A stretch of 64,000 nucleotides of DNA from Thermoanaerobaculia bacterium (GTDB lineage: Bacteria; Acidobacteriota; Thermoanaerobaculia; Multivoradales; J023), in NCBI GenBank assembly GCA_030431255.1, contig JAUIJL010000002.1, positions 682,001-746,000 of the forward strand. Reading direction: 5' to 3'. The position numbers and the translations under genes are program-made. A model generated the notes under the pieces. It had not been told where the DNA came from, searched no databases, and saw nothing but the letters and a program-made list of their open reading frames with translations. Within the stretch, counting starts at the first letter, position 1; each line of letters opens with the position of its first letter. Of the stretch, positions 4,698-53,951 are shown one piece after another.

Positions 4698-7600
4698 TCA
4701 AGCCGCACGGTCGATTGATTGAACGTTGGGCGGTAGGGCGGCGGTGGGCTCGTGATCTTCTCCCAATCTCAGGAAGCTGGGTAGAAGGAGCAGGGTGAAA
4801 ATGGTCGAGACGGACATGCCGCCGACGATCGCCACCGCCAATCCACGGTAGATGGCGCTGCCCGGCCCGGGGTTGAGCACCAACGGAAGCATGCCGAATA
4901 TGCTGGTCAAAGTCGACGTGAAAATCGGCCGCAGGCGCACGGTCAAGGCCTCGCGCACCGCCTCTTTTCGTCCTGCCCCCTCCCGCTCGGCCGCGCGGGT
5001 CTGATGCACCAGCAGAATCGCGTTGTTGACCACCAAGCCGAGCAGGATGATGAAACCGATCATGGTCAGCAGGTCCAGCGGTTGAAAGGTGATCAGATTG
5101 ATCAAGCGCAGGGCGACGACCCCACCGACCGTGGCCAAGGGCAACGCCAGGGTGACCAAGGCCGCGTCCCGAGGGGAACGGAAGAGCGCCGCCATGAGCA
5201 GGAAGAGCACCCCCAGGGCGATGAGGAAATTCTCCGCCAAATTGCCCACGGCCCGCTGCAGGGTATCGGCGCTTCCACCGTAGCGAATGGTGCCGTCGGC
5301 GGGCAGGGCGGCGGTCAACGCCGGCTCCACGGATCGGATCGCGGTCAGCGCCTGCTCCAGGCTTTGGCCGTTGGGCGGCTCCACGGAAAGGGTCACCGTA
5401 CGCCGACGATCGACCCGGCGCAGCTGGTTCGGACCCACCGTACGTTCCAAGGTCGCCAGCGACCCCAGCTGGACCACGCCCGCCGGGGTCGTCAACGGCG
5501 TCGCCAAAAGCTCTTCCGGGGTGGCCCAATTCCGGGCGCGCAAGATCACGTCCAATCGACGGTCGCCGTCAAAGTGCTCCCCGAGCCAAAGGCCGTCACC
5601 CAGGGCTCGCACCACCCGGCCGAGCTGCCTTCGATCCCAGCCGACCTCGGCCAAGCGCTCGTCGTCGGGTTTCAGCCGGAGCTCGGGCTCCGCCAGCTCC
5701 AAGGCTGGGGTGGGACGGATCGTGGCCCCGGGCACCGCTTGGGCGAGCAGCTCCATGCCCTGCCGCCCGACGGCCATCAAGGCTTCGATGTCGCGTGCCT
5801 GGAGGTGGACGTCGATCGATCGGTTGCTGCCGAAATTGCCGAAGAGATTGCCCCGCACCACGAAAGCCTGGGTATCGGGCAGGCCCTGGACGATCTCATC
5901 CCGCACCAAGGCGAGCAGATCGTCCACCTGCCGCTGATCCTTGGCCCGGACGCCCATGAAACCGCCCCAAGCGCCGCCCCAGAAAAAGTAGTTGCGCAGA
6001 GCGGGCTCTCGCTCACCGCGCATATTCGGCTCCAGACGCTCCACCAGCGTGGACGAAATCTCGTTTTGGATCGTGATCGGGCTGGAGCCCGGCGGAAATT
6101 GAAAGAAGACGTCGACGGCGTCCCGTTGTACCGGCGGCAGGTAGTCCAACGACGGCATCAAGAGAACCGTGGCCGCCACGGGAATCAAAAACAAACCCGC
6201 GATCCAACCCGCGCGGCGGCTCGGCGTATCGGTCAGCGCCATGAGACGGCCCGCCAACCGGGACCAGGTTTCTCGATGCCGATCCTCGAAGCTGCGTCCG
6301 CCGAGGAATCGATCCGCGGCGGTCGGCAAAATCGTCACCGCCATCAACAGGGAGAGCACCACCGCGATGGCGATGGTCAGGGCGAGGTCGGCGAAGAGCT
6401 GCCCTTCCACGTCCTCCAAGAACATCACGGGCAGAAAGATGGCCACGGTGGTGGCGGTGGACGCCACCAAAGCTCCCCAGACCTGAGTCGTTCCCCGCTC
6501 CGCCGCTTCTCCGGCGGGCAGACCGCGCTCGCGAAGGCGCACGATATTTTCGAGCACCACAATCGCGGCATCCAACACCATGCCGACGGCAAAGGCCAAG
6601 CCGGCAAGAGAAATCACATTCAAGCTGCGGTCCGCCAGCCGGAGGATCGCGAAGGTGCCGCACAGGGATAGGGGAATGGCCAGAGCCACCAGCAAGGTCG
6701 CCCGCTTGTGGCGCAGGAACCACCACAACACCCCGACGGCGAGCAGCACCCCGAGCACCAAATTCGAGGTCACGAGACGGACCGCCCGCAGAATAAAGAC
6801 GGATGGGTCGAACGAGGGCTGCATGTCCAAGCCCTTCTCCGCCAAGACCCCCTGCCGCAGCTCCGCGGCGATGGCCCTCACCTCTTCCAACGAAGCCAGG
6901 ATGTTGGCGTCGGTTTCTCGCCCTAAGCGCAAGGCCATGGCCGGATTGCCGTTCTGCAAGGCGGAGAAAGCATCGTCTCCCGGCAGGATCTCGACCTCCG
7001 CCACATCGCCCAAGCGCACGGGGCGACCGTCACGCCATTCGAGGATCAGACGGTCCAGCTCCGCCGGGGCATAACGACCGGCGAAGCGCAACGTGTACTG
7101 GCGACGGCCGACGTCCACGAAACCGGCGGAGACATCGTTCGCTTGACCTGCTCGAGCCGCCACAGCCGGCACATCGACCCCGAGCTCCGCCGCTTTGAAG
7201 GGATCGAAGGTGATGCGCACCTCGTCCGGAGCCCCAGCGAAGAGCTGCACGTCGGAAACCCCGTCCACCGCCTCGAATCGAGGTTTGATCACATCCTCCA
7301 CCAAGGTGCGGTAGGACGTCACCGTGTGGGGATTGTCCGGTAGGACTTGAATGAAGTACCAAATCAACGAGCCCGCGTCGCTTTGATCCCCTCCCAGCTG
7401 GACCCGGGGAGGCACGGCATCCCTGGGCAGCGGTGGCAGCTGATTGAGGCGCCCCAAGACCTCGATCAGACTCTCGGTCATGGGCGTGCCCAGGTCGAAG
7501 GTCAGGTTGATATTCGCCGAACCCGGGCTGACCGTGGCGTCCATCCGGTCCAAACCCGGCAAACCCTGGAGCACCTCTTCCTGGGGCTCCAAAATTTCGG

Positions 7601-7781
7601 CTTCCATCTCCGCCGGGGCCGCGGCCCGCCACGCCGTGGAGATGGTCATCTGCGGCCGCTCGATATCTGGGAAAAGCTGGATCGGCAGCTTGCTCAGGCT
7701 GAAGAAGCCGAACAACACAATGACCGACGCAGCGACGGCCACCCCAGCGGGATTCTTGAGTGAGGTGCGGGTGAGGTCCAA
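4698..7781 (-). CDS. RND superfamily efflux pump inner-membrane transporter
   Basis: A 1027-residue AcrB/CzcA-type transporter. TM1 is at the N-terminus (VAVAASVIVLFGFFSLSKLP), followed by the porter domain, a TM2-TM6 block, a second porter domain and TM7-TM12 (GFIILLGLVVNNAILLVHQ). The proton-relay helix reads GLAFAVGMVLDAAIVVLEN, so the Asp pair typical of drug pumps is Asp-Ala here. The length fits the family. The start is TTG at 7781: GAGGA lies about 8 bases upstream and no ATG is near. The pump precedes its adaptor in the operon, the reverse of the acrA-acrB order. The substrate is not predictable; multidrug or small-molecule export is likely. Confidence 0.92.
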   Translation of the reverse strand: MDLTRTSLKNPAGVAVAASVIVLFGFFSLSKLPIQLFPDIERPQMTISTAWRAAAPAEMEAEILEPQEEVLQGLPGLDRMDATVSPGSANINLTFDLGTPMTESLIEVLGRLNQLPPLPRDAVPPRVQLGGDQSDAGSLIWYFIQVLPDNPHTVTSYRTLVEDVIKPRFEAVDGVSDVQLFAGAPDEVRITFDPFKAAELGVDVPAVAARAGQANDVSAGFVDVGRRQYTLRFAGRYAPAELDRLILEWRDGRPVRLGDVAEVEILPGDDAFSALQNGNPAMALRLGRETDANILASLEEVRAIAAELRQGVLAEKGLDMQPSFDPSVFILRAVRLVTSNLVLGVLLAVGVLWWFLRHKRATLLVALAIPLSLCGTFAILRLADRSLNVISLAGLAFAVGMVLDAAIVVLENIVRLRERGLPAGEAAERGTTQVWGALVASTATTVAIFLPVMFLEDVEGQLFADLALTIAIAVVLSLLMAVTILPTAADRFLGGRSFEDRHRETWSRLAGRLMALTDTPSRRAGWIAGLFLIPVAATVLLMPSLDYLPPVQRDAVDVFFQFPPGSSPITIQNEISSTLVERLEPNMRGEREPALRNYFFWGGAWGGFMGVRAKDQRQVDDLLALVRDEIVQGLPDTQAFVVRGNLFGNFGSNRSIDVHLQARDIEALMAVGRQGMELLAQAVPGATIRPTPALELAEPELRLKPDDERLAEVGWDRRQLGRVVRALGDGLWLGEHFDGDRRLDVILRARNWATPEELLATPLTTPAGVVQLGSLATLERTVGPNQLRRVDRRRTVTLSVEPPNGQSLEQALTAIRSVEPALTAALPADGTIRYGGSADTLQRAVGNLAENFLIALGVLFLLMAALFRSPRDAALVTLALPLATVGGVVALRLINLITFQPLDLLTMIGFIILLGLVVNNAILLVHQTRAAEREGAGRKEAVREALTVRLRPIFTSTLTSIFGMLPLVLNPGPGSAIYRGLAVAIVGGMSVSTIFTLLLLPSFLRLGEDHEPTAALPPNVQSIDRAA

Positions 7782-7984
7782 CTCTTCGATCCTCGGAAGT
7801 CAAAGGGTCCAACCAGGTATACGGCACAAGCAGAAGCCGGTTGCAGATCACAGCCCTTCATTTGCCATTCACTTCGCCTTCATCGACCCATCACACGCCT
7901 GGGATCGAATGTTAAGGAGGGCGATTTTCCTAGCCCGTCCATGTCGTTCGTTGCTCGACGACGTGCCGCATTTAGGAGCCTTTC

Positions 7985-9190
7985 ATGGTTCAATCCACTT
8001 CCCGCTCGCTCCGGCTCGGAGCATTGGTTTGCTTAGCGCTCTTCGCCTGCCGAGCCGACGATCCCAATAAACCGGCTGAGCTCTCGCCCACGACCCCGAG
8101 CCACCCTCCAACCACTCAGAAAACCCACCAGGACCAGCCTCCATGGGCTGAAGCCGTGGAGCCGTCCACCGGTGGCCCGTCGAGCCCGACCACCACCGCG
8201 CCTACCGGCACTTCGGAGATCTTCGGGGATCCCACGCCGGCGGTAAACCCATCCGAGACCACCGCCTCATCTCAGCCGATCGTCATCGACGGCTCCAGCA
8301 CGGTCTTCCCGATCAGCGAGGCGGTCGTGGAGGAATTCGAGCGCCGGAACCCGAGCACGCCGGTGCGCCTCGGCGTCAGCGGCACCGGTGGTGGATTCCA
8401 AAAATTTTGCCGACGAGACATCGACATCGCCGACGCCTCCCGTCCGATCAAAGCGGCGGAAGCGGAGATTTGCCGTCAAAACGGGGTCGAGCTCATCGAG
8501 CTGCCGGTGGCCTTCGACGGCATTTCCGTCGTGGTCCACGCACAGAACGATTGGAGCCCTTGTGTCACCGTGGGCGAGCTGAAGCGTCTTTGGGCGCCGC
8601 CTTCCCAAGGACGTCTGCGGCAGTGGAACGAGCTGCGACCGGATTGGCCCGAGAAACCGATCACCCTCTTCGGGCCCGGCAAGGACTCCGGAACCTTCGA
8701 CTACTTCACCCGGGCCATCGTCGGCAAGGAGGGTGACGGTCGCGACGATTTCAATGCCAGTGAAGACGACTACCTGCTGGCCCAGGGAGTGGCTCGCGAC
8801 CCCTTCTCCCTGGGATTCTTCGGCTACGCCTACTACCAAGAATATCGAGACCGGCTGAGGTTGGTGGCGATCGACGCCGGAGCCGGCTGCGTCTCGCCTT
8901 CGGAGCAAACCATTGCCCGAGGCTCCTACCGTCCCCTCTCGAGGCCTGTTTTCATCTATGTGCGCTTGGCCTCGCTCGAGCGGGCCTCGGTGCGGGATTT
9001 CGTTCGCCTTTATTTGGAGCGGGTGCCGTTGACGGCCCCCAAGCTCGGATATGTGGCCTTGCCGGCGCGGGCCTACAACCTGGCCCAGCGGCGGGTTGAG
9101 CAACGCACCTTGGGATCGCTCTTCGATGGCGGCTCCCAAGTCGGCATGTCCATCGAGCAGCTTCTCGAGCTCGAGCTGGGAGACGGTTGA
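7985..9190 (+). CDS. PstS-like phosphate-binding lipoprotein
   Basis: A 401-residue periplasmic binding protein of the PstS type (PBP-like/SBP_bac_11). The lipoprotein signal ends at LALFAC (Cys near residue 22) and is followed by about 70 residues of Pro/Thr/Ser-rich linker. The binding domain begins [14 protein letters not shown] and has the phosphate-loop hallmarks [26 protein letters not shown] and [15 protein letters not shown]. An ATG with AGGAG 7 bases upstream fixes the start. It is followed after 3 bp by a histidine kinase and then a receiver, not by pstCAB or phoU. That context suggests a sensing role, or one with a remote transporter (inference). Confidence 0.87.
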
Positions 9191-9193
9191 TCC

Positions 9194-11038
9194 ATGGCTT
9201 GGTTGCTCAGGTTCTTGCCGGCGCGGTTTCGACACATGTCGATCCGTCGACAGCTGTTGGGAGCATTCGCCGCCGATCTCCTGTTGATGATGCTGTTGGG
9301 TGCCTTTGCCTTGACCCAGATGGAAATCGTGCGCGACAAGGCCGACGAGGTGACGGCTCGCTCCCTGCCCTCGATCCGCAATGTCGATCGGATCCAGACT
9401 CTGGTCGCCCGCTACCGGCGATTGCAGCTGGAGTTCGCCCTCTACTCGAATCGCGGCGACCGCGCTCGCACGGAGCGGGACCTGGTCCAGACCGAGGTCG
9501 ACATGGGCGAATGTCTGGAGGTGCAGATGCCCCTGCTCGCAAGCCCCGCCGAGCGCCTCGCCTTCGACCGATTCCGCACGGAATGGCGGGAATACTTGGC
9601 CGCCACCCACGGCAAATTCCTGCCCGCGATTCGGCGCGGCAATACCGGCACGGTGCAGCCCGCCCTGAGCCGATTGAACCCCAAACACCGACAGCTGACC
9701 AACGCCACCGAGAGGCTCAATGAGCTGGCGGAGATCAGCACCGAAGAGGCCATGACGGTGCTGCGCAACACCCAGGTCACCTCCCGCCGATTCATCGTCG
9801 CCGACACGGCGTTTTCCGTCGCTCTGTCGGCGTTCATCGGCCTGGCGCTGGCGGCGGATCTCTCGCGGCGTATCCGCCATCTGACATCCGCCACCCGACG
9901 GGTCGCAGCCGGCGACCTGACCCCCGGCACGGGGCCCCTCGAGCTGCCGACCATGCACGATGAGATCGGCTTCCTGGCGGAGAACTTCGAGCAGATGGTC
10001 GACAGCTTGCGACGGCAGCGGGAAACCTTGGAGCGCCGCAATCGGGAGCTCGGTGAGAGCCTCGACGAGCAACGCCGGCTGACCGCTGATTTGGTGCGAC
10101 GGGAGGCGGCCGAGCAGGCCGCTTATCGAGCACGAACAGAAGCGGAGGCTCGCGATTCCGCCAAGAGCATCTTCCTCGCCACCATGAGCCACGAGCTCCG
10201 AACTCCCTTGAACGCCATCTTGGGTTACGTACAGCTGATGAGCCTGGCGGCGGAGAGCCGACGAGACGAGAGCTCGCTGCAAGATCTCTCACGGATCAGC
10301 TCGGCCGGCAAGCACCTCGCCACCCTAATCAACAACTTGCTCGACTTCTCGAAAATCGAGCAGGGCAAAGTCGACACCGAGATCCTCACCTTCTCCATCG
10401 CGGATTTGGTGCACGAATCCCTGGCCATCGTCGAGCCCCTGATCCAACAGCAGGGGATTCGGCTGGAGCTGGAGCTTCAAGATCCTCTAGGCACCATGAC
10501 CAGCGATCCCGGCAAGCTCCGCCAAGTGCTTTTCAATTTGCTCAGCAACGCGGCCAAATTCACTGAAAACGGCACCGTCACCCTGACCGTCGAGCGCCGG
10601 GGCTCTCAAGCCCTGCCGGACGACCGGGCCACCGAGGCTGGGGACACTAGTGCGGAGGAGACCGGTGCCGAAGACATCATCGTGATTCGGGTCGCCGACA
10701 CTGGGATCGGCATCCATCCCGATCATTTGGAATCGATTTTCGAGCCTTTTCAACAGGCGGACAGCTCCATCAGCCGCCGATTCGGCGGCACGGGCCTGGG
10801 TTTGGTGATCAGCCGTCGGCTCAGCCGGCTGTTGGGCGGAAGCCTCACCGTGGAGAGCATGCTCGGCGAAGGCTCGGTGTTTACCGCTCACTGGCCGGCA
10901 ACGGCTCGGACCACCGGTTTCGGAACCGGCTCCGAAAGACACACCCATAAAGACACACAACCGTCCGACCTTCGGGTCGGGCGTTCCATAGCTACCGACG
11001 ACCCGGTCGGTACGCCTGAGGGAGAGCAGCATGGCTAA
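9194..11038 (+). CDS. Membrane-bound hybrid-free sensor histidine kinase (HAMP-HisKA-HATPase)
   Basis: A 614-residue sensor kinase. TM1 (residues about 20-40) is followed by a helical periplasmic sensor of about 150 residues resembling four-helix-bundle MCP-type sensors. TM2 (FSVALSAFIGLALAADL) and a HAMP linker come next, then a coiled coil. The HisKA box is FLATMSHELRTPLNAILGY with phospho-accepting His333. The HATPase part has an N box (RQVLFNLLSNAAKF), DTGIGI and GGTGLGLVIS. There is no attached receiver. It starts 3 bp after the pstS-like stop, and its last 8 bases overlap the receiver gene, so the three form a coupled operon. The signal is unknown; the neighbour suggests phosphate or the PstS-like ligand (inference). 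Confidence 0.92.
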   Translation: MAWLLRFLPARFRHMSIRRQLLGAFAADLLLMMLLGAFALTQMEIVRDKADEVTARSLPSIRNVDRIQTLVARYRRLQLEFALYSNRGDRARTERDLVQTEVDMGECLEVQMPLLASPAERLAFDRFRTEWREYLAATHGKFLPAIRRGNTGTVQPALSRLNPKHRQLTNATERLNELAEISTEEAMTVLRNTQVTSRRFIVADTAFSVALSAFIGLALAADLSRRIRHLTSATRRVAAGDLTPGTGPLELPTMHDEIGFLAENFEQMVDSLRRQRETLERRNRELGESLDEQRRLTADLVRREAAEQAAYRARTEAEARDSAKSIFLATMSHELRTPLNAILGYVQLMSLAAESRRDESSLQDLSRISSAGKHLATLINNLLDFSKIEQGKVDTEILTFSIADLVHESLAIVEPLIQQQGIRLELELQDPLGTMTSDPGKLRQVLFNLLSNAAKFTENGTVTLTVERRGSQALPDDRATEAGDTSAEETGAEDIIVIRVADTGIGIHPDHLESIFEPFQQADSSISRRFGGTGLGLVISRRLSRLLGGSLTVESMLGEGSVFTAHWPATARTTGFGTGSERHTHKDTQPSDLRVGRSIATDDPVGTPEGEQHG

Positions 11039-11432
11039 GATCCTGGTGGTCGACGACAACGCAGACAATCGCAACATTCTCGCTCGCCTGGTCGGTTACG
11101 GCGGACACCAGCCGGTGACCGCCACCAACGGCCGAGAGGCCATCGGTCTCGCCCGCGACACCCAACCCGACCTGATTTTGATGGATCTAGCCATGCCGGA
11201 AATGGACGGTTGGACCGCAACCCGTCGCTTGAAATCCGATGAGACGCTGACCACGATCCCGGTGATCATCGTCACCGGCCACGTCACCAGCAACGACATC
11301 TCCTTGGCTCAACAAGTGGGTTGCAACGACGTAGTGTCGAAACCCATCGACTACCATGTGCTCATGGGAAAAATCAGCCAACACCTGACCGGCGAGAGCC
11401 CCGAGCTACCCCAGGTCTCCCGCCCAGCTTGA
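11031..11432 (+). CDS. Stand-alone response regulator receiver protein
   Basis: A 133-residue single CheY-like receiver domain without output domain. The acidic pair is at KILVVDDN, the phospho-acceptor Asp52 lies in LILMDLAMPEMDGW, the switch Thr is in VIIVTGHVTS and the conserved Lys in VSKPID. It overlaps the kinase gene by 8 bases and is presumably phosphorylated by it. With no DNA-binding part, it should signal by protein contact or as a phosphorelay intermediate (family knowledge). Confidence 0.93.
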   Translation: MAKILVVDDNADNRNILARLVGYGGHQPVTATNGREAIGLARDTQPDLILMDLAMPEMDGWTATRRLKSDETLTTIPVIIVTGHVTSNDISLAQQVGCNDVVSKPIDYHVLMGKISQHLTGESPELPQVSRPA

Positions 11433-11448
11433 GGGAAAGGTCTTCGCA

Positions 11449-11614
11449 GGGTCGGGGCTTGCCCCCGACCGAGCTTCTTCCGTAGGGTCGGGGCTTGCCC
11501 CCGACCGAGCTTTTTCCATAGGGCCGGGACTTGCCCCCGACCGAGCTTTTTCCATAGGGCCGGGGCTTGCCCCCGACCGAGCTTCTTCCGTAGGGTCGGG
11601 GCTTGCCCCCGACC
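11449..11614. repeat. Five-copy 36-bp-period palindromic tandem array
   Basis: Five units start at 11449, 11485, 11521, 11557 and 11593. Each has a 22-bp near-perfect palindrome (GGGTCGGGGCTT then GCCCCCGACC) and a 14-bp spacer, GAGCTTCTTCCGTA or GAGCTTTTTCCATA. Units 1, 2 and 5 carry GGGTC, and units 3 and 4 carry GGGCC. The array fills the gap between the convergent receiver and LpxH-like genes, where it could act as a two-way terminator or REP/BIME-like element (inference). It is related in sequence to the hairpin at 36699-36719. Confidence 0.9.
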
Positions 11615-11627
11615 GCCCGATTCGACC

Positions 11628-12548
11628 CTAGGCGCTGCGGGGGATGCTGACCTCTTCTTCGACCACCCCTTCTTCGGCCACCTCGGCGAGCGGGCCGTCC
11701 AGCTCGGCCAGGGCCTTGAGACCGTCGACCAGCTCCATCCGACCGTCCTCGTGCTCGACGATGAGCGTGCAGCTTTCGATCCAATCCCCGCAGTTGTAGT
11801 AGGTGCCCTCGACTTCCTGGCGGATCTCCGCTTTGTGGATGTGGCCGCAGACCACGCCGTCGAGACCTTGCCGACGGGCTTCGCCGAGCACCGCTTCCTC
11901 GAAGCGGCTGATGTAGGTGCACGCGGATTTGACCCTCAGCTTGAGGTATTGCGCCAGGGACCAATAGGGTTTGCGCCGTAGACGGCGAAAGGCGTTGTAG
12001 ATTTGATTGAGGCGCACCAACCAGCCGTAGGCCAGCGCCCCCAGCATGCCGAGCCAACGGGAATGCTGGATGACCAAATCGAATTGGTCGCCGTGGGTGA
12101 CCAACAATCGTCGGCCGTCCGCCGTGGTGTGCACATCCAGCTCGCGGATGGGGATCCGCCCGACCTCCAAACCGGCGTATCGGCGGGCGCGATCGTCGTG
12201 ATTGCCGGGAATGAAGATGACCTCCACCCCTTCGCGGGCCATCGAGAGCAATCTCGAAACCACCTGCTCACAGGCCGGATTCCAATGCCAACCGCGATGC
12301 AGCTGCCAGAGGTCGATCACGTCTCCCACCAAATAAAGCTTTGAGCAGTCCAGACGCTCCAGGAGTCGATGAAGATCCCGTGCTCGGGCGCCGTGGAATC
12401 CCAAGTGCAAATCACTGAGGAAGACCGTGCGAGCCCTCAGCCTGCGCTCAGCAGCGGGTTTGTGGCCACCGAATCGACCCCAAGCAAGGGCCCCACCAGG
12501 ACTGTGCGAAGAATGCGAAGACTGCGAAGACGTAGGTAGCTCGCTCAT
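11628..12548 (-). CDS. UDP-2,3-diacylglucosamine diphosphatase-like metallophosphoesterase (LpxH family)
   Basis: A calcineurin-type phosphoesterase of 306 residues from the chosen start. Metal-site motifs appear in order: FLSDLHLGFHG, VGDVIDLWQL, IPGNHDDRARR, VTHGDQFD and CGHIHKAEIR. These match LpxH-type hydrolases, which remove UMP from UDP-diacylglucosamine in lipid A synthesis; related enzymes act on other substrates, so the exact reaction is inferred. The ATG at 12548 is preferred over an in-frame start at 12587 because GGAAAGG lies just upstream. The N-terminal 20 residues are Ser/His-rich and disordered. It is monocistronic and convergent with the receiver gene. Confidence 0.85.
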   Translation of the reverse strand: MSELPTSSQSSHSSHSPGGALAWGRFGGHKPAAERRLRARTVFLSDLHLGFHGARARDLHRLLERLDCSKLYLVGDVIDLWQLHRGWHWNPACEQVVSRLLSMAREGVEVIFIPGNHDDRARRYAGLEVGRIPIRELDVHTTADGRRLLVTHGDQFDLVIQHSRWLGMLGALAYGWLVRLNQIYNAFRRLRRKPYWSLAQYLKLRVKSACTYISRFEEAVLGEARRQGLDGVVCGHIHKAEIRQEVEGTYYNCGDWIESCTLIVEHEDGRMELVDGLKALAELDGPLAEVAEEGVVEEEVSIPRSA

Positions 12549-12699
12549 GGATCGCCTTTCCAGTTGTGGCTCTCGGGTCGAGCCCAAGATAGGAAGCGAC
12601 CGTTAAGCTGGAACGTAGGGTCCGTTAAGGCTTGGGCGAGCTGTGTAAATCCTCATGAAATATAGCCTTTCGGCGTCGAATCCGGCGGACGAACGTGGC

Positions 12700-14439
12700 T
12701 CAAAGGCCTTGCTCGGCGCGCACCTTCAAGGCACTGCGTTTGAGGGCGACCGCGTCTTGCTGACCCGCGGCCGCTTGATAGGCCGAAGAGTAGTAGGCCG
12801 CCAGCTCGCCGGTCATCAGCAATTTCGTGGCGATCACCAGCAGCGGAATAACCAAGGCGATACCGAATACCATCCAATACGATCGATTGAGCTGGGCTCG
12901 TTGATGTTGGAAGCGAGCCCACAGCTCGGGATCGCATGCGGAATCCAAATCCGGCGACGGGCCACCCGGAATCGCCTGAGACACACACGGGCGCACGTCC
13001 TGCAAGCCGTAGAGAGCCGCCAGCTCTTGGGATTCGGAGCTATCCAGCCCCGGCCAGCGCGGCGCATAACCCCGTCGAAGATCGTCCAAGACCCTGAGCT
13101 TCTCGAAGAAGTCATAAACAGGTGGTAGGTAAACAAAGCGGTCTTGAAGATCCACCGCCGTCGGCCCGCCGGGACCGGTGGAGCTCAGCGGCTCGAGAAT
13201 CGGCCGCCCTCCGGGAGGCGGGCTCGACCGCAGGTGGCGGATCCATTGGAAGAGGCGATCCTGAGACAGCCTGGCGGTTTGTCGTTCCTCGGCACCTTCG
13301 GCGGCAAAGCTTTCGCGTTCCTCGGCCGCCACTTGCCGTCGCGCGTCGATCTCCCCTCGGAGGTCGGCCACCCGCTGCTCTTGAACGTCCTGGTCCACCC
13401 GCGCCTGGTCCCGTCGAGCGATCCAAGCGCCGCGATTGCGCTGAGCCTCTTTCACCGATTCCACCAGCTCGGCCTCGCGGGACGCGGCGCTTTCCTGAGG
13501 TGGATTCGCCCGATGCCGATCCAGCTGCGCCTGGCGATTGCGCACCTCGCGGTCCCAATAATTCACGCTGCCTTGGGCGCTTTCCAAACGCCGGCGGATC
13601 TCGGGGCCGCGATCCCTCTCTTGGCGGAAGCGTTCCTCGTCTTGCTCCACCCGCCGATCCGAGCGCAGAAGGAGATCCCCGGTCTGCAGACGGCGCAGCT
13701 CCGCCTGCCGTTGAGTCTCTGTCTCCTGGGCCTGCAAGAGCTCCTGACGTCGGGTGACCACCTCCCGTCTGATGCCTTCCTCATGCTCACGGCTCTCGAT
13801 CTGAGCCCTGAAAATCAACAGCTCCACGGGTTGGGCGGTGATCAATGCCGAGGCGAGGATGATCCCCAAACGCATGGCCACGGGAATTGCCACCCTGAGC
13901 TTCCCACGACCCCCGGGGGCTCGCAGGTCGGTGGTCAAGAATTGGCGCTCATAGATCAACACCGCCATGGCGAAAAGGGATGCGGGCAGGAGAGCGATCA
14001 AGGTGGTGCCGTTGAAGGCCACGAGGTCCGACTGCAGGATGCAATTGAACAGCAAGGTCCAAGCGCCGAGCTCGAAAATCGCCACGATGCACAACAACAG
14101 CGAGGCGTATTTCATCTCCAACGCCGCTCGCCGGCTGAGCAGCGACGTGCCAAAGACGTCCAGCCCTAGGGTGCTCGCCAAGCTGCCCAATGGCCCGGAA
14201 AGCAACTTCGCCGATCCGCCGCCCGACACCGCCGCAGCCTGTAGCTCGCGAAACGGACAGCCCGCGTCCAGGGCGCGAGAGGTCTTCCCATCTTCCACGG
14301 GCTGGGGAGGCGGAGGGCTGGAATCGTCGATCGAAGCTCTTTCCGAGCTCGGTTGTGACGTCGGCGATGCGGCCGGCTGTGGCTGTTTTAGGCCGCCGCC
14401 CAAGCTGCTGTCCAAGGTGCCGTCCAAGCTGCTTTGCAA
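12700..14439 (-). CDS. DUF4407-like membrane protein with long coiled coil
   Basis: A 579-residue protein from a probable TTG start at 14439 (GGGAG about 6 bases upstream); the frame runs upstream to 14556 without a better start. A Pro/Ser-rich N-terminal region is followed by three predicted membrane helices (YASLLLCIVAIFELGAWTLLF, TLIALLPASLFAMAVLIY, VAMRLGIILASALITAQP). Next come about 200 residues of charged coiled coil (EEGIRREVVTRRQELLQAQ...). A final helix (YWMVFGIALVIPLLVIATKLL) precedes the cytoplasmic tail. This helix-coil-helix layout is that of DUF4407 proteins, whose function is unknown. It is divergent from the GntR regulator, which is a plausible controller. Confidence 0.72.
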   Translation of the reverse strand: MQSSLDGTLDSSLGGGLKQPQPAASPTSQPSSERASIDDSSPPPPQPVEDGKTSRALDAGCPFRELQAAAVSGGGSAKLLSGPLGSLASTLGLDVFGTSLLSRRAALEMKYASLLLCIVAIFELGAWTLLFNCILQSDLVAFNGTTLIALLPASLFAMAVLIYERQFLTTDLRAPGGRGKLRVAIPVAMRLGIILASALITAQPVELLIFRAQIESREHEEGIRREVVTRRQELLQAQETETQRQAELRRLQTGDLLLRSDRRVEQDEERFRQERDRGPEIRRRLESAQGSVNYWDREVRNRQAQLDRHRANPPQESAASREAELVESVKEAQRNRGAWIARRDQARVDQDVQEQRVADLRGEIDARRQVAAEERESFAAEGAEERQTARLSQDRLFQWIRHLRSSPPPGGRPILEPLSSTGPGGPTAVDLQDRFVYLPPVYDFFEKLRVLDDLRRGYAPRWPGLDSSESQELAALYGLQDVRPCVSQAIPGGPSPDLDSACDPELWARFQHQRAQLNRSYWMVFGIALVIPLLVIATKLLMTGELAAYYSSAYQAAAGQQDAVALKRSALKVRAEQGL

Positions 14440-49061: not shown

Positions 49062-50039
49062 TCAGCCCCCGAGCCGGGCCGCCTGGGCATCGCCCAGGCC
49101 CAAGGGGGCGCCGAAAAAGGTGGATTGATCCTGCTGGGCAAGCGTCTGCCCGTGTCGGTCCAGGTGCCTCGCCCGCCAACGGAAGACATAGTCCTCACCC
49201 ACCAGACGCGCTTCGAATTTCACCTCCAACCGTTGACCCTCACGGGCTTCGAGCGGCTCGCTCCAAGGGAAGAAGGCCTGGCCATAAAGCGGCGAGCTCG
49301 TGGACGGCCGATTGCTGATCGTGGTCTCGGCATCGAGCTCGGCGTCGAACCACACCGCCAACCCGTGCACGGTTCCACCGGTCAGCCGCCACTCGGCATC
49401 GGCCTCAAAATGGGGCGTGCTCAACCGGAGGTAATCCAACCGCCCCAAAGGCTCCGGGGGCGAGCGGCAGGCCTCGGGTTCGAGGTCCGCCCGACACCAA
49501 TGGTTCGAGGCGGCTCGGTGCAGGATCGAGAGCTCCAAGCCGAGCTCTTGCCCCAAGGCACCGGGCTGAAACGCTCCGACTTGTCGTCGATACCAAAAAG
49601 GCGCCGTCACCGGGCACGCCCAAAGGGTGTCCGCCCGCGCAATCAGCGTGCCTGTCGGCTTGAGCCATCGATCTCTGGCGTCGATCAACGAGAGCAGCCC
49701 TTGGCCGAAGAACGGCAGCACTCCCCTCAAGTCGGAGACGAGCACGTCCACGGGTTGGTCCAGGTGCACCTCACGGGAGTCGGCCCGGATGACCTCGATC
49801 CGTTGCCCGCAACCGTTTTCTTCGGCCAGGGAGCGCAGCCATTCCACGCTCGGGTCGGATTCCACGGCGAAGACTTTTCGAGCCCCGGCCTTGGCGGCCA
49901 AAAGGGAGAAGACCCCGGGCCCCGCGCCCAGATCGGCCACCAGACAATCCTCGGAAATCGCCCGCTCCAACGCAGATCGATAGGCGTCGAATCGGGCTCG
50001 ATCCGCGACCATCTGCCCGTAGGCCGGCAGGCTATACAC
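49062..50039 (-). CDS. PRMT-fold SAM-dependent methyltransferase of the RiPP cluster
   Basis: 325 residues from GTG 50039, which lies 2 bases after the kinase TGA; the frame upstream overlaps the kinase gene and is a shadow. An N-terminal PRMT-like helix (MYSLPAYGQMVADRARFDAYRSAL) precedes SAM motif I, VADLGAGPGVFSLLAAKAG (36-50), and acidic Glu60 (FAVESD). Then VLVSDLRGVLPFFGQGLLSL occupies the place of the PRMT double-E loop, but both Glu are absent. A beta-barrel-like C-terminal domain (residues about 180-325) follows, as in PRMTs. Arginine methylation is therefore unlikely, and the predicted core has no Arg. Its likely target is the cluster peptide (inference). It is the last gene of the cluster. 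Confidence 0.78.
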   Translation of the reverse strand: MYSLPAYGQMVADRARFDAYRSALERAISEDCLVADLGAGPGVFSLLAAKAGARKVFAVESDPSVEWLRSLAEENGCGQRIEVIRADSREVHLDQPVDVLVSDLRGVLPFFGQGLLSLIDARDRWLKPTGTLIARADTLWACPVTAPFWYRRQVGAFQPGALGQELGLELSILHRAASNHWCRADLEPEACRSPPEPLGRLDYLRLSTPHFEADAEWRLTGGTVHGLAVWFDAELDAETTISNRPSTSSPLYGQAFFPWSEPLEAREGQRLEVKFEARLVGEDYVFRWRARHLDRHGQTLAQQDQSTFFGAPLGLGDAQAARLGG

Positions 50040-50041
50040 GC

Positions 50042-51043
50042 TCAGACACCCGCCGCCGATTCGGCCATCTCTGCTTGCACGGTGCGGATCAGTCGGCTCG
50101 GGATGTGATTCCCCCGGGGACGAATCCAACGGCGCAGCGACACCGAAGCCACCAGCTGGGAGAGAAGATCCAGCTCCCGCGCGCGCATGGATCGGTCCGG
50201 GAATCCGGGCACGGCCAGATTGGCCGCCAGCCTCACCACGGATTCCGCGGCGCCGGCGGAGAACACCCCCTCCGACTCCCCCTCGTCCGGCTCGCCCTGT
50301 AAGAAATAGATCGCGGCCAACGGCAGAGGTCCCGCTGGAATCGAGCTTTCGTCCAGATCGAAGTGGCGCTTGGACCAATCCGGGGTAAGCCTGGGCAAGG
50401 CTTCCTCACTGCCGAAAAGCATCTCCGCCGACTCGGGCCAAAGACGCAAGCGGAATCCGTCGGCGAACACGCCGAAGGTTCCGTCGGCCCGGCGACGAAT
50501 CACCGAGGTGTCATCGGCCAGGACCCGAAAACCCGAAAGGGCGAAGGCCGCGGCGGTGGTGGACTTTCCCGCTTGCGGCGGGCCGACAAAGAGCACCGCC
50601 CGATCGTCGACCACCACCGAGCTGGCGTGCAACGGCAGCAGGCCTCGGAGGCGAAGGATCAGGCCCAGCACCGGGCCACCGAGGTAGATCGCCGTATTCT
50701 GGAGGTTGGAGGTGGTGGGCCATCGAGCCCACACCTGGGTGCCGTCGGCCGACAGCCAGAATACCGTGTGGTCGGTGTAGGAGAATCGGAAGAGGCGACC
50801 GAGCTCGGAGGTTTCCGCCCCATCGATGACGAGCAGCGGCCTACTGCTGCTGTCGAGCACGGAGCCGTCCAAGACGCGCCTCCAATGGGATCCCGCTGGG
50901 ATCGGCGGCCCTTCACCAAAGACAATGTTCAGGGGGGTGGGGTCAACGGGTCGGTGAGAGCGATCCGGCAGAAGCCCGGGCAACGGATGGCTGCTGACCA
51001 GGCTCAAGCCACAGCTTGTGTAGCGATGGAGCTCAGAACCCAC
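50042..51043 (-). CDS. HPr kinase-like serine kinase of the RiPP cluster
   Basis: 333 residues. An N-terminal 130-residue region is followed by an HprK-like domain: LPLHASSVVVDDRAVLFVGP, Walker A GPPQAGKST (154-162), then FRVLADDTSVI (Asp177-Asp178) and FGVFADGFRLRLWP. Kinases of this kind occur in lasso peptide clusters, where characterised ones phosphorylate a C-terminal Ser of the precursor. The GTG start (51043) overlaps the precursor stop by 11 bases, so the two are translationally coupled. The predicted core here ends in Phe and has no C-terminal Ser, so the target site must differ. Confidence 0.83.
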   Translation of the reverse strand: MGSELHRYTSCGLSLVSSHPLPGLLPDRSHRPVDPTPLNIVFGEGPPIPAGSHWRRVLDGSVLDSSSRPLLVIDGAETSELGRLFRFSYTDHTVFWLSADGTQVWARWPTTSNLQNTAIYLGGPVLGLILRLRGLLPLHASSVVVDDRAVLFVGPPQAGKSTTAAAFALSGFRVLADDTSVIRRRADGTFGVFADGFRLRLWPESAEMLFGSEEALPRLTPDWSKRHFDLDESSIPAGPLPLAAIYFLQGEPDEGESEGVFSAGAAESVVRLAANLAVPGFPDRSMRARELDLLSQLVASVSLRRWIRPRGNHIPSRLIRTVQAEMAESAAGV

Positions 51044-51254
51044 CGGTCTTGAGGATCATCGGCCCGATCACCATGCCGTCCGCGTTGCCCATCAAAGAAT
51101 TCAGGGTCTGGGTGATCTGACGGATGTCGCCGTAGGCCAAAAGCTCCGGGGAAACGTAGGGTTTTCGAGTCGAGCCGGCGACCGCCGCCCTCGTGTCCTC
51201 ACTTGGAGGTGGTTCCGCTAACCGTTTTTCAGATATTCCCATCTGACTTCGCAT
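51033..51254 (-). CDS. Lasso-type RiPP precursor peptide
   Basis: 73 residues. The leader holds the lasso recognition motif YxxPxLxxxGxxxxxT: Tyr33, Pro36, Leu38, Gly42 and Thr48 in KPYVSPELLAYGDIRQITQ. The core would be residues 50/51-73, with the segments LNSLMGNADGM and VIGPMILKTGGF. The only acidic residue able to close a macrolactam is Asp59. It is position 9 if the core starts at Leu51, or 10 if it starts at Thr50 as the Thr(-2) rule suggests. The first 29 residues are charged and Pro-rich. ATG 51254 or 51242 could start; neither has a good ribosome site. It is followed by the overlapping kinase gene. Confidence 0.8.
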   Translation of the reverse strand: MRSQMGISEKRLAEPPPSEDTRAAVAGSTRKPYVSPELLAYGDIRQITQTLNSLMGNADGMVIGPMILKTGGF

Positions 51255-51292
51255 CCGGAAGGAGACTTAACCCACAAATAAGGTGATGTCCG

Positions 51293-51313
51293 ATCAAGTC
51301 TGCAGCACTTGAT
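51293..51313 (-). promoter_or_regulatory. Hairpin in the leader of the precursor mRNA
   Basis: ATCAAGT (51293-51299) and ACTTGAT (51307-51313) form a 7-bp stem with a 7-base loop, about 40 bases before the precursor start. It could shield or tune translation or stabilise the mRNA (inference). Confidence 0.4.
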
Positions 51314-51445
51314 TCGATCATTCGATCGCGGGCGATTTTAAATTCCTCTCCTCGGACTTCCAATTCTTAGGCCGGCTCCGACCCGAGATCGGATCCAACT
51401 ACGCACACATACCGCGAAGAGGACATCAGCGCTTAACCCTAAAGT

Positions 51446-51474
51446 AGCATAAATGAAGGAAAATCACACCTCAA
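51446..51474 (-). promoter_or_regulatory. Candidate promoter of the RiPP precursor
   Basis: On the minus strand TTGAGG (51474-51469) and TATGCT (51451-51446) are separated by 17 bases in an A/T-rich stretch between the cyclase and precursor genes. It would give an untranslated leader of about 185 bases and let the peptide be made in excess over its enzymes. Confidence 0.45.
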
Positions 51475-51512
51475 CGGAAATCCGCCCAACTCTTGCTCAC
51501 GCTCTCCGCGCC

Positions 51513-53462
51513 TCACGATAGCTCATCGCCGGCGCGAGCGGCCCAAGCGGCGAAATTCAGCGGCCGACGCCAAGCCGCACTCACCGACCACCGATTTCGA
51601 CGTCCACCACTTTGATGTCTACCACCTTGATGTCCACCGCCGGCCGGAGCTTGCCGCTCGAGCTCCTCGAGCAGCACATCGGTCCGGATGTAGCACCGGA
51701 TCTCCGGCTCCATGTGTAGCCAAGTCTCCAGCAGCTCTCGGAGGGGACGACCCTCGGGATGTTTGGGATCCCCGACTTGGGGGCTTTTCGGCCGTTTCAG
51801 CACCACAACCGGCAATCGCCCGGCCATGGCCTTGCGCAGCAGGTGTTTATCGATACACCAAGGCGAGGTCGGAGCCGACAGCGCTCGATCAACCACCCTG
51901 TGATCGAAGAAGGGGTGTCGGCGCTCCAAGGGCAAACCGCGATTGCCGGCGTCCACCCGTTCAAAGACGTGGCTCCATTGAAGATCAAAGGTATAACGCA
52001 AAGCCTCGGGACGTCTGAGACGTCGGTCTGGGCCGCCCTTACCGGCTTTGCGCGCCTCGACGGCGAGCTCGGCTCCGTCTCGGAATGCGGGGGATTGCCG
52101 CCGCCACCGATCCTCGGCGTCGAGCCCGCGGGCGAAGTCCGGATCCAGCCACCGGGGAAAACCTTGTCGCCAATGCCGTCGCGCTCGATGCATCTCCCAA
52201 GACGACCACAATCCCATCGGCGGCAGCTTGCCCACCGCCAGAAGGCTTCTCCAGATGTCGAGCACGGCGGCGCCCCAATGACCGCCGGCCAGCCGCCGAC
52301 ACCAGAGACCCCTCTCCGGCAAAAGGAGAGGGTCTCCTCCCCAGCCGGTCAGCACGACCTTCGAGCTCTCGAGCACGTCGAGGTCGAAGTCGTGGTAAAT
52401 CGCGTCCACCATGGGATCGCCCGGCATGGGCGACCAGGGCAGCTCCTGCCATCGATCAAAAAGAGCGTAGGCATCCATGGACCTGCGACGGTGGGGTATG
52501 CCCAGGAATTCCGCGGTCTGCGCCGCCAGCTCCCCCTCTCGATCCTCGATCGCCCGCTCATAGAACAAGGTGTAAGCCCGCGGGCGTAGCTCCAGGTCAC
52601 ACGCCATGGCAGCCAAGGAGGTGGAGTCCAGGCCGCCGCTCATGGAAATGGCGATCGACTCGCCTTCCCGTGCCCGGGCTCGTACCGCGTCGCGCAAGGC
52701 GGCTCGAAAATCTTCGATCCGCTCCTCCGGGTCCATGGGCTCGGAGCTCAGGCTCTTCCAAGGCTCGTGGAACCGTACCGACCGGCGCGTGCCGCCTTTC
52801 CTCAACCCATCGCCTTGCCAGATCACCACGTGGCCTGGCGGCACCCGACGGATTCCACGCCAAATCGTGCCGTCTGGCTCGAAATTGCTGTCGAATAGGA
52901 GGTAATCCAAAACACCGACCGGATCCTTCTCAACCCCGACCTCGGGGTGGGCGAGGATCGGCGCCAAGCTATTGCTGACCACGACGCCGGACGACAGCTC
53001 GGCGAAATAGAGCGGGCGCACGCCAAAATGATCCCGCGCCGCCGCCAGCATGCGAGAGCTCGGATCCCAGACCACGAAGGAGAAGTCTCCGTGCAAATAG
53101 GCTGGACACTCACTGCCTAGGGCGCTCCAAGCGGCGGCTACCCATTGCCCATCGCAGGCCCCACGGGGCAGCGAAACACCCGCCCGCTCCAATCGGATCG
53201 ACAGCTCTCGGCGGCAGTCCAGGCGCACATCGGCGACGGTCATCAGCCCACGCCACTGAATTACCCCTTGATCGGCCGGCTCAGCTGGATGGCCGGTGTC
53301 CAGCCGGGTTTCGATCATATGCACGGGCCCCGACGACAGATGATCGACGCCATCCGGCGCCCGGGCCTTCAGAAGATCCGTAGCCCGCTCCAGGAAACGT
53401 CGATCACCGGAGCCGTGATCAGCGCTCTGTCGATGAGCGTAGAGGGCCAAAATTCCCGACAC
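51513..53462 (-). CDS. Asparagine synthetase-type lasso cyclase (macrolactam synthetase)
   Basis: 649 residues. An N-terminal class II glutamine-amidotransferase-like domain begins MSGILALYAH: the catalytic Cys2 of true asparagine synthetases is Ser. Conserved GDFSFVVWDPSSRMLAAARDHFGVRPLYFA is retained. The synthetase domain has the ATP-pyrophosphatase loop SMSGGLDSTS (274-282) and VVLTGWGGDPLLL. Lasso cyclases use this fold to adenylate the Asp/Glu side chain and form the ring, without needing glutaminase. The C-terminus ends in a Gly/His/Arg-rich stretch (APAGGGHQGGRHQSGGRR) coded by short DNA repeats. The GTG start is 9 bp after the PqqD-type gene. Confidence 0.85.
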   Translation of the reverse strand: MSGILALYAHRQSADHGSGDRRFLERATDLLKARAPDGVDHLSSGPVHMIETRLDTGHPAEPADQGVIQWRGLMTVADVRLDCRRELSIRLERAGVSLPRGACDGQWVAAAWSALGSECPAYLHGDFSFVVWDPSSRMLAAARDHFGVRPLYFAELSSGVVVSNSLAPILAHPEVGVEKDPVGVLDYLLFDSNFEPDGTIWRGIRRVPPGHVVIWQGDGLRKGGTRRSVRFHEPWKSLSSEPMDPEERIEDFRAALRDAVRARAREGESIAISMSGGLDSTSLAAMACDLELRPRAYTLFYERAIEDREGELAAQTAEFLGIPHRRRSMDAYALFDRWQELPWSPMPGDPMVDAIYHDFDLDVLESSKVVLTGWGGDPLLLPERGLWCRRLAGGHWGAAVLDIWRSLLAVGKLPPMGLWSSWEMHRARRHWRQGFPRWLDPDFARGLDAEDRWRRQSPAFRDGAELAVEARKAGKGGPDRRLRRPEALRYTFDLQWSHVFERVDAGNRGLPLERRHPFFDHRVVDRALSAPTSPWCIDKHLLRKAMAGRLPVVVLKRPKSPQVGDPKHPEGRPLRELLETWLHMEPEIRCYIRTDVLLEELERQAPAGGGHQGGRHQSGGRRNRWSVSAAWRRPLNFAAWAARAGDELS

Positions 53463-53471
53463 GCCGTGGAC

Positions 53472-53951
53472 TCACTCCGCTGGAGCGTCGAGGACCGAAG
53501 TCGGAGGAACCGCCGGGCGGATCAGGCCTTGACTCGCCAGCTGGTCGATCAGCTCGTCGACGTCGGACCGCAACCGTTGCTCGTCCACCTCGAATTCCGG
53601 CAACAAGGTCTCGACGATCGGCCCCGGCTCACCGTAGGTCTCCAGCAATTGCCAAATTCGCACCCCCATTGGATTGAGGCCGAAATAACGCTGAGACGAC
53701 ATATCCAGGATCACCGCCTCGTCTTCGAGGAGGCGAAAGAGAGCATCGGGAGACACCGCCCAACGGCCATTGGAGGGGTTCGTTGGGGGGCTCAGCGGCC
53801 GAGATCCGCTCGGAGCTTGAGGATCCCCGAGGGGCTTGCCTTGTGTTGTCGTTTTTTTCTCTGACATTCCATCGGCTTTCAGAAAAGTGGCGACGGGTCG
53901 CGGAGCCTGAGTGGCTTTGAGCATCGCGACTTGCGAATGGGCCAGACGCAT
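53472..53951 (-). CDS. PqqD-family leader-binding protein (lasso B1/RRE type)
   Basis: 159 residues at most. Residues about 63-155 form a PqqD-like RiPP recognition element: WAVSPDALFRLLEDEAVILD, SQRYFGLNPMGVRIWQLLE, then PEFEVDEQRLRSDVDELIDQL and LIRPAVPP. The RRE delivers the precursor leader to the processing enzymes. The N-terminal 60 residues are Pro/Ser-rich and poorly constrained; starts at 53951, 53924 or 53867 (MSEKKTTTQG) are all possible. No transglutaminase-like B2 protease domain is fused or adjacent. It heads the cluster, 9 bp before the cyclase. Confidence 0.83.
   Translation of the reverse strand: MRLAHSQVAMLKATQAPRPVATFLKADGMSEKKTTTQGKPLGDPQAPSGSRPLSPPTNPSNGRWAVSPDALFRLLEDEAVILDMSSQRYFGLNPMGVRIWQLLETYGEPGPIVETLLPEFEVDEQRLRSDVDELIDQLASQGLIRPAVPPTSVLDAPAE

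Follow-up and report, generated by a model that had tools for sequence, protein, structure and literature searches.

The window (the whole 64,000-nucleotide stretch of DNA analysed) carries what is probably a lasso peptide cluster of a widespread type—RRE, B2, cyclase, precursor, kinase, methyltransferase—that lacks a B2 leader peptidase and an ABC exporter of its own, and in which the leader would be removed in trans by a genetically unlinked B2 before ordinary lactam closure. The gene set is present with its motifs intact, there is no local B2, and one strong B2 is encoded elsewhere in the genome. Judged by its genes, the pathway looks like a lasso pathway in its cyclase, its RRE, and its precursor, and departs from one in having no B2 within the cluster. 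The five genes form a block on the minus strand, read from 53951 to 49062, with the following features:

53472..53951, minus strand: RRE protein (PqqD-like, B1); PF05402, E 3.4e-18
51513..53462, minus strand: asparagine-synthetase-like lasso cyclase (C); Asn_synthase, E 3.3e-30; GTG start; SGGLDS motif
51033..51254, minus strand: precursor peptide, 73 aa; lasso_cyano NF033528, E 6e-5, below cut-off
51141..51158, minus strand: putative RRE-binding motif YVSPEL, leader residues 33-38; from the sequence and the motif [Y/W]xxPx[L/V/I/A/F/Y] (PMC13381572)
51036..51107, minus strand: putative core TLNSLMGNADGMVIGPMILKTGGF; assumes that the leader ends one residue past Thr48, placing Thr at -2; start uncertain
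50042..51043, minus strand: HprK-like kinase; TIGR04352 (HprK-related), E 2e-10, below cut-off
49062..50039, minus strand: PRMT-fold methyltransferase; GTG at 50039 taken as start by homology

The sequence-only reading had placed five genes on one strand, and all are present at these coordinates with open reading frames. The RRE domain occupies the C-terminal half of its protein (profile match 53511-53765). The cyclase is of the asparagine-synthetase-like lasso kind, and the named lasso cyclase model (NF033535) matches it at E 3.4e-51, yet far below the model's cut-off; the Pfam Hpr_kinase_C match to the kinase (E 0.003) is also below cut-off. A longer methyltransferase frame, extending to 50378, would overlap the kinase gene, and homology favours the GTG at 50039. 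Between the RRE and cyclase genes lie 9 bases, at the spot occupied by B2 in relatives such as G005; the cyclase-precursor gap is 258 bases, and the 3' end of the precursor gene overlaps the start of the kinase gene.

That the 64 kb hold neither a B2 nor a lasso-type ABC exporter, as had been claimed from the sequence, was borne out by every search made. PF13471, run against the whole genome, had no match inside the window at E <= 1; among window frames of at least 60 aa, a B2 profile built in this analysis had none at E <= 10, and phmmer with two lasso-cluster ABC proteins had none at E <= 1. A contig edge does not explain the absence: ~27 kb of the 763-kb contig lie between the cluster and its end, and the search took in the complete assembly (G000; 10.19 Mb, 54 contigs, 98.83% complete).

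The same PF13471 search, which had been suggested as a check, returned one strong B2 in the genome (G000:C25:182851-183180, E 3.3e-24). This B2 sits in a second, complete lasso cluster on contig C25, composed of an RRE, the B2, a cyclase, two precursors, and an ABC gene, followed by a membrane-fusion-protein-like gene; it has its own RRE, and the C25 leaders are of another type (YETPEIVDLGDARELTLG, against YVSPELLAYGDIRQIT in the window). A third locus, on C39, encodes a cyclase, a precursor, and a kinase, with neither RRE nor B2 in the 18 kb fetched and no PqqD match anywhere on the contig; its core begins GVSAGVGD, with Asp at position 8 by the Thr(-2) rule. As the window and C39 loci are both without B2, the genome has three cyclase loci and one lasso-type B2. 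Further PF13471 matches were rejected as the missing B2, namely that on C42 (E 3.5e-8), whose G004 homologue lies, by eye, in a radical-SAM/PqqD/HprK-type locus, that on C49 (E 4e-5, in a 581-aa frame), and weaker ones; the PqqD proteins at C23 and C35:606557 were likewise rejected as members of the window cluster.

In the working that we propose, the RRE would bind YVSPEL in the leader, the kinase would place a phosphate on a hydroxyl group while the precursor is still linear (Thr70, in the C-terminal Lys-Thr pair, is the likeliest), and the PRMT-fold enzyme would methylate a target other than arginine; the C25-encoded B2, recruited by the window RRE, would then cut off the leader, and the cyclase would join the new N-terminus to Asp59. 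We infer the use of the C25 B2, the order of the steps, the modification sites, and the lasso topology. In the published test case, lasso RREs from outside Bacillota did accept leaders other than their own (PMC13381572).

To place the cluster among its relatives, we started from a cyclase alignment; one short pattern retrieved 513 relatives, of which the best 80 were kept, and these make, with G138, G291, and the window, a set of 83 loci. Profiles for RRE, B2, cyclase, kinase, and methyltransferase, together with one ABC query, revealed a recurring gene order of RRE-B2-cyclase-precursor-kinase-methyltransferase, followed by ABC in, for example, Argonema (L081), Phormidium (L083), and G005 (L078), and without a visible ABC in L084, L085, L093, and L123, among others. 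Apart from B2 and ABC, the window has the same gene set and order as the Cyanobacteria/Acidobacteriota clusters L078, L081, L083, and L123; unlike the window, all four place a B2 between RRE and cyclase, and the first three have an ABC downstream. B2 lies within the stretch in 57 of the 80 named loci. Kinase and methyltransferase co-occur in 26 of them, and the pairing, put forward earlier as a distinguishing feature, is therefore common and was dropped as a novelty.

The cyclase closest to that of the window, among the best 80 of 513, is that of G005 (34-36% identity), from a locus with B2 between RRE and cyclase. In the cyclase tree, which retains 80 of the 83 rows (L111, with 14 stops in its merged stretch, and two short rows were dropped), the window groups with G002 and G005 (SH-aLRT 98); the G002 locus shows no B2, but its contig ends within the methyltransferase gene. 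The B2 label changes 14 times across this tree, at least 10 of them forced, with absences that include 10 loci cut near the cyclase. When only the 53 loci whose cyclase is flanked by 4 kb or more in each direction are kept (39 with B2; 14 without, the window included), it changes 8 times, at least 4 of these on well-supported branches, in a run that warns of long branches meeting. The sequence-only reading had anticipated that a conserved five-gene block without B2 might mark a new subclass, and had named beforehand, as evidence against this, a B2 just outside the locus in relatives; such a B2 occurs in or beside the cluster in G005, G138, G280, and G291, and the order that recurs in relatives includes B2. 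Because relatives carry B2 and the label changes 8 times on the tree of uncut loci, the window cluster is not a member of a subclass that is B2-free by descent. In four of the 14 uncut loci without B2 (L127, L148, L150, L157), no RRE was detected either, and a B protein of a different type may serve them.

Distant B2 genes recur in other genomes whose cyclase locus is without one. We tested 16 of the 23 B2-less named loci (leaving out L114, L120, L127, L148, L150, L154, and L157) and found a B2 elsewhere at E <= 2.4e-10 in 13 of the 16 genomes, with no cyclase beside it in the fetched surroundings in any of the 13. At E <= 1e-10, 12 of the 16 had a B2, compared with 59 of 297 genomes in a phylum sample (Fisher 7e-6), a background drawn from one phylum while the 16 genomes span several. 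When uncut loci alone were counted, the window's genome included, 7 of 10 had a distant B2 (p 0.001). Split arrangements akin to that of the window are found in other bacteria too. Of the two options left by the sequence-only reading, a trans-acting protease is the better supported; the other, a product other than a lasso peptide, was not supported. Genome-mining rules that insist on a B2 adjacent to the cyclase would overlook clusters of this kind, and our literature search, covering mostly open papers, recognised no lasso cluster with an unlinked B2. Unclustered lanthipeptide proteases offer a parallel, being RiPP leader proteases encoded away from the cluster, as proposed here, though they serve another RiPP class and belong to other protease families (PMC8960859).

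The surroundings of the distant B2 genes are varied. Five of the 13 are RRE-B2 pairs (L199-L203), and one of these, L203, is accompanied by a kinase, which the cyclase locus of the same genome does not have. The second B2 of G497 lies in an RRE-B2-kinase arrangement with no cyclase within 14.7 kb, whereas L204 and L205 sit, by eye, among seemingly unrelated genes; L200 and L088 lie on contigs of equal length (656,236), and if these are one contig, the L200 B2 would be ~370 kb from the L088 cyclase. The separated parts are complementary: an RRE accompanies the distant B2 in four of the five genomes whose cyclase locus has no RRE (L080, L088, L095, L102, L122) and, among the eight whose cyclase locus has one (L089, L107, L109, L115, L121, L128, L129, L145), in L145 alone (Fisher 0.03, for a test devised after inspection). 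Among the 16 B2-less loci, several are truncated where their contig ends, and L107 and L210 may derive from a single cluster that was split in two. In G504, a stop interrupts the matched part of the distant B2.

The three genomes of the 16 in which a lasso-type B2 was not found—G002 (81% complete), G003 (86%), and G004 (96%), with at most matches of another kind—all belong to the same family as the window's genome, and each has a B2-less locus. With neither a local nor a recognisable distant lasso B2, they are what would be expected if an unrelated protease, general or of signal-peptidase type, or no dedicated peptidase at all, freed the core for the cyclase to act on as usual. Pseudomycoidin reportedly forms in vivo with neither a leader nor a leader peptidase (cited in PMC8498205 and elsewhere), and a related Bacilli RiPP family pairs its discrete RRE with a leader protease resembling signal peptidases (PMC13381572). 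Linear polyphosphorylated peptides (LPP) share with the window cluster an RRE, an HprK-like kinase, a YxxP leader, and the lack of a B2; unlike it, they have no cyclase, and they employ a signal-peptidase-like leader protease and an NTP transferase (PMC13381572). The window cluster does have a cyclase, and none of the five genes of the block encodes such a leader protease or any other protease. Moreover, the window's genome does carry a lasso-type B2, and a distant B2 turns up much more often where the cyclase locus itself has none than it does across the phylum sample. We consider release by an unrelated protease, or without a dedicated peptidase, unlikely, and favour cleavage by the unlinked B2.

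The loss of B2 and ABC could also mean that the cluster is decaying and its pathway silent. Signs in this direction are the long end branch of the window cyclase (1.02), a 15-base repeat in 2.5 copies at the 3' end of the cyclase gene, and a methyltransferase that departs from 7 of 33 conserved columns, more than any other among the 26 rows, with four of the seven falling at its missing C-terminus. Against these stand the five open frames and the state of the other conserved columns (those with conservation of 90% or more across the remaining rows), where the RRE deviates at 0 of 9, the kinase at 1 of 20, and the cyclase at 9 of 53, no worse than L119 (9), L077 (11), or L121 (12). Such largely intact columns speak against plain decay, which we regard as distinctly improbable compared with a functioning cluster served by a distant B2.

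The block fits a lasso cluster in having an RRE (B1) and a precursor with a YxxPxL leader motif and a Thr ahead of the core, and similar precursors adjoin the cyclases of relatives. The sole acid of the putative core is Asp59 (51078-51080); the Thr(-2) rule would make it core residue 10, a core start at Asn52 residue 8. Natural lasso rings have 7-9 residues (PMC10368454, PMC8498205), and the ring of 10 that the Thr(-2) rule would give falls outside that range. Among one precursor per locus, available for 73 of the 83 loci and counted with kinship ignored, Asp at T+11 recurs in 9 of 73, and because five of these nine (L078, L081, L082, L087, L090) carry B2, the spacing is not tied to B2 loss. 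Gly stands at T+4 in 21 of the 36 precursors with T+10 spacing, a pattern that hints at cores beginning further on and at rings of 7-8; in the window, a later start would allow a ring of 8 from Asn52 to Asp59. The position of the acid and the recurrence of T+11 could be taken to mean a non-classical product, with a 10-residue ring, a later core start, or some other use of the cyclase. Against this stand the presence of B2 in five of the nine T+11 loci, the Gly at T+4, and the mention of a lasso engineered to have a ring of ten residues (PMC8498205); we hold a non-classical product to be very improbable.

The kinase has the H-K-D-D residues, read by eye as His in LHAS, Lys in the P-loop AGKST, and Asp-Asp in ADD, that characterise paeninodin-like lasso kinases as described in PMC9266682; a phmmer comparison with PDB sequences gave no match. 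Paeninodin-like clusters (PadeK, ThcoK, SyanK) likewise combine a lasso cyclase, a discrete RRE, and an H-K-D-D HprK-like kinase, but they contain B2 and a transporter, which the window does not, and their kinases act on a C-terminal Ser (PMC9266682), where the window precursor ends KTGGF; the window in turn adds the PRMT-fold methyltransferase. The Bsf cluster of the Gram-negative Bradymonas sediminis also pairs kinase and RRE with a lasso cyclase, and its B1 helps both kinase and B2; unlike the window, it has its own B2, ABC, and nucleotidyltransferase, Ile at -2, and phosphorylation at Ser3 (PMC10368454). With known lasso phosphorylation sites at a C-terminal Ser (PMC9266682) and at Ser3 (PMC10368454), Thr70 is a site that we infer. 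It is our best guess because Lys/Arg followed by Thr is enriched close to the C-terminus in this family: the last eight residues contain [KR]T in 27 of the 73 loci, where shuffled tails give 6.1 +- 2.2 (at most 14 in 2000 shuffles). Of the 29 loci that have both kinase and methyltransferase, 21 show [KR][ST]. The Lys-Thr70 pair lies at 51045-51050.

The methyltransferase has the fold of a protein arginine methyltransferase without the usual signs of arginine chemistry. A profile of nine members of the METHYLTRANSFERASE family matches the PDB sequences of PRMT2, 6, and 1 structures at E ~1e-53, spanning both PRMT domains, Rossmann and barrel. Two glutamates of PRMTs bind arginine; where PRMT2 has them (SEWMG...FEYML), the window enzyme has Asp and Gly, and most of 26 relatives read SD[LI]RG, without the first Glu. 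The window core contains no arginine, as is true of 20 of the 35 methyltransferase-linked cores, the window's included. With both glutamates lost and no arginine in the core, arginine methylation of the window peptide is unlikely, and arginine is thus an improbable site for the +14 Da change that the sequence-only reading had put forward. As the family includes a PRMT-fold enzyme without the arginine-binding residues, a new peptide methylation may await there. Gly or Asn follows the ring acid in 24 of 31 loci with methyltransferase versus 9 of 42 without (Fisher 3e-6, in a test devised after inspecting the list and with kinship ignored). SAM-dependent tailoring of lasso peptides is otherwise represented by StspM/LasF and the PIMT-type LihM/TceM (PMC9266682), which are of other methyltransferase families than the apparently PRMT-fold window enzyme; a literature search of mostly open papers, its results dominated by PRMT papers, recognised no PRMT-fold lasso methyltransferase. 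Taken further, one B2 might act as a shared, genetically unlinked maturation hub for several lasso clusters per cell, evolved repeatedly across phyla, with the window cluster as one client, its PRMT-fold enzyme as a non-arginine peptide methyltransferase tracking ring Asp plus Gly/Asn, and possibly a natural 10-residue ring; this extension we offer tentatively, as conceivable but doubtful. If an unlinked B2 does serve several precursors, RRE-B2 specificity becomes testable within one cell. The window enzyme is without the C-terminal extension of most relatives, and a second copy-type protein at L078 (5961-7109) retains both glutamates.

Beyond the window, lasso-type and related loci were found in its genome (G000) and in same-family genomes (G001, G003, G004 and G005); L-numbered coordinates count within the fetched stretch of that number.

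L023 (G000:C39) 6727-9733, minus strand: cyclase, precursor and HprK-like kinase, making up a third lasso-type locus in G000
L041 (G004) 10920-11822, also in L040 (G003): phosphoribosyltransferase-like protein (by reading) with a fused PqqD domain
L215 (G001:C427) 2037-2453: B2 standing alone

The predicted core of the third locus's precursor is GVSAGVGDSLDPFTRKSGFAPKPPGT, and neither an RRE (PqqD-like leader-binding protein) nor a B2 (lasso leader peptidase) was detected in the L023 stretch. In L041 and L040, both B2-less clusters, the fusion protein lies between the lasso precursor and the kinase. G001, home of the lone B2, had no close relative of the window cyclase among the matches listed.

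Two other loci combine PqqD and radical-SAM-like proteins.

L020 (G000:C35:596000-615000) 10252-13031, same contig as the window: RiPP-type locus, read by eye
L212 (G004:C176) 8333-11007: single row of PqqD, HprK-like, radical-SAM-like and small B2-like (PF13471) proteins

By eye, L020 holds a small frame, a PqqD protein, a radical-SAM-like protein and an HprK-like kinase. The small B2-like protein of L212 has a solitary homologue at G000:C42 (L018 9705-10154).

Two further features relate to the methyltransferase fold and to the cyclase gene.

L038 (G005) 6869-8386, minus strand: additional methyltransferase with the fold of the cluster enzyme
Window 51602-51638: 15-base unit in 2.5 tandem copies, close to the cyclase gene's 3' end

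This second G005 methyltransferase keeps both PRMT glutamates and is divergent from the cluster.
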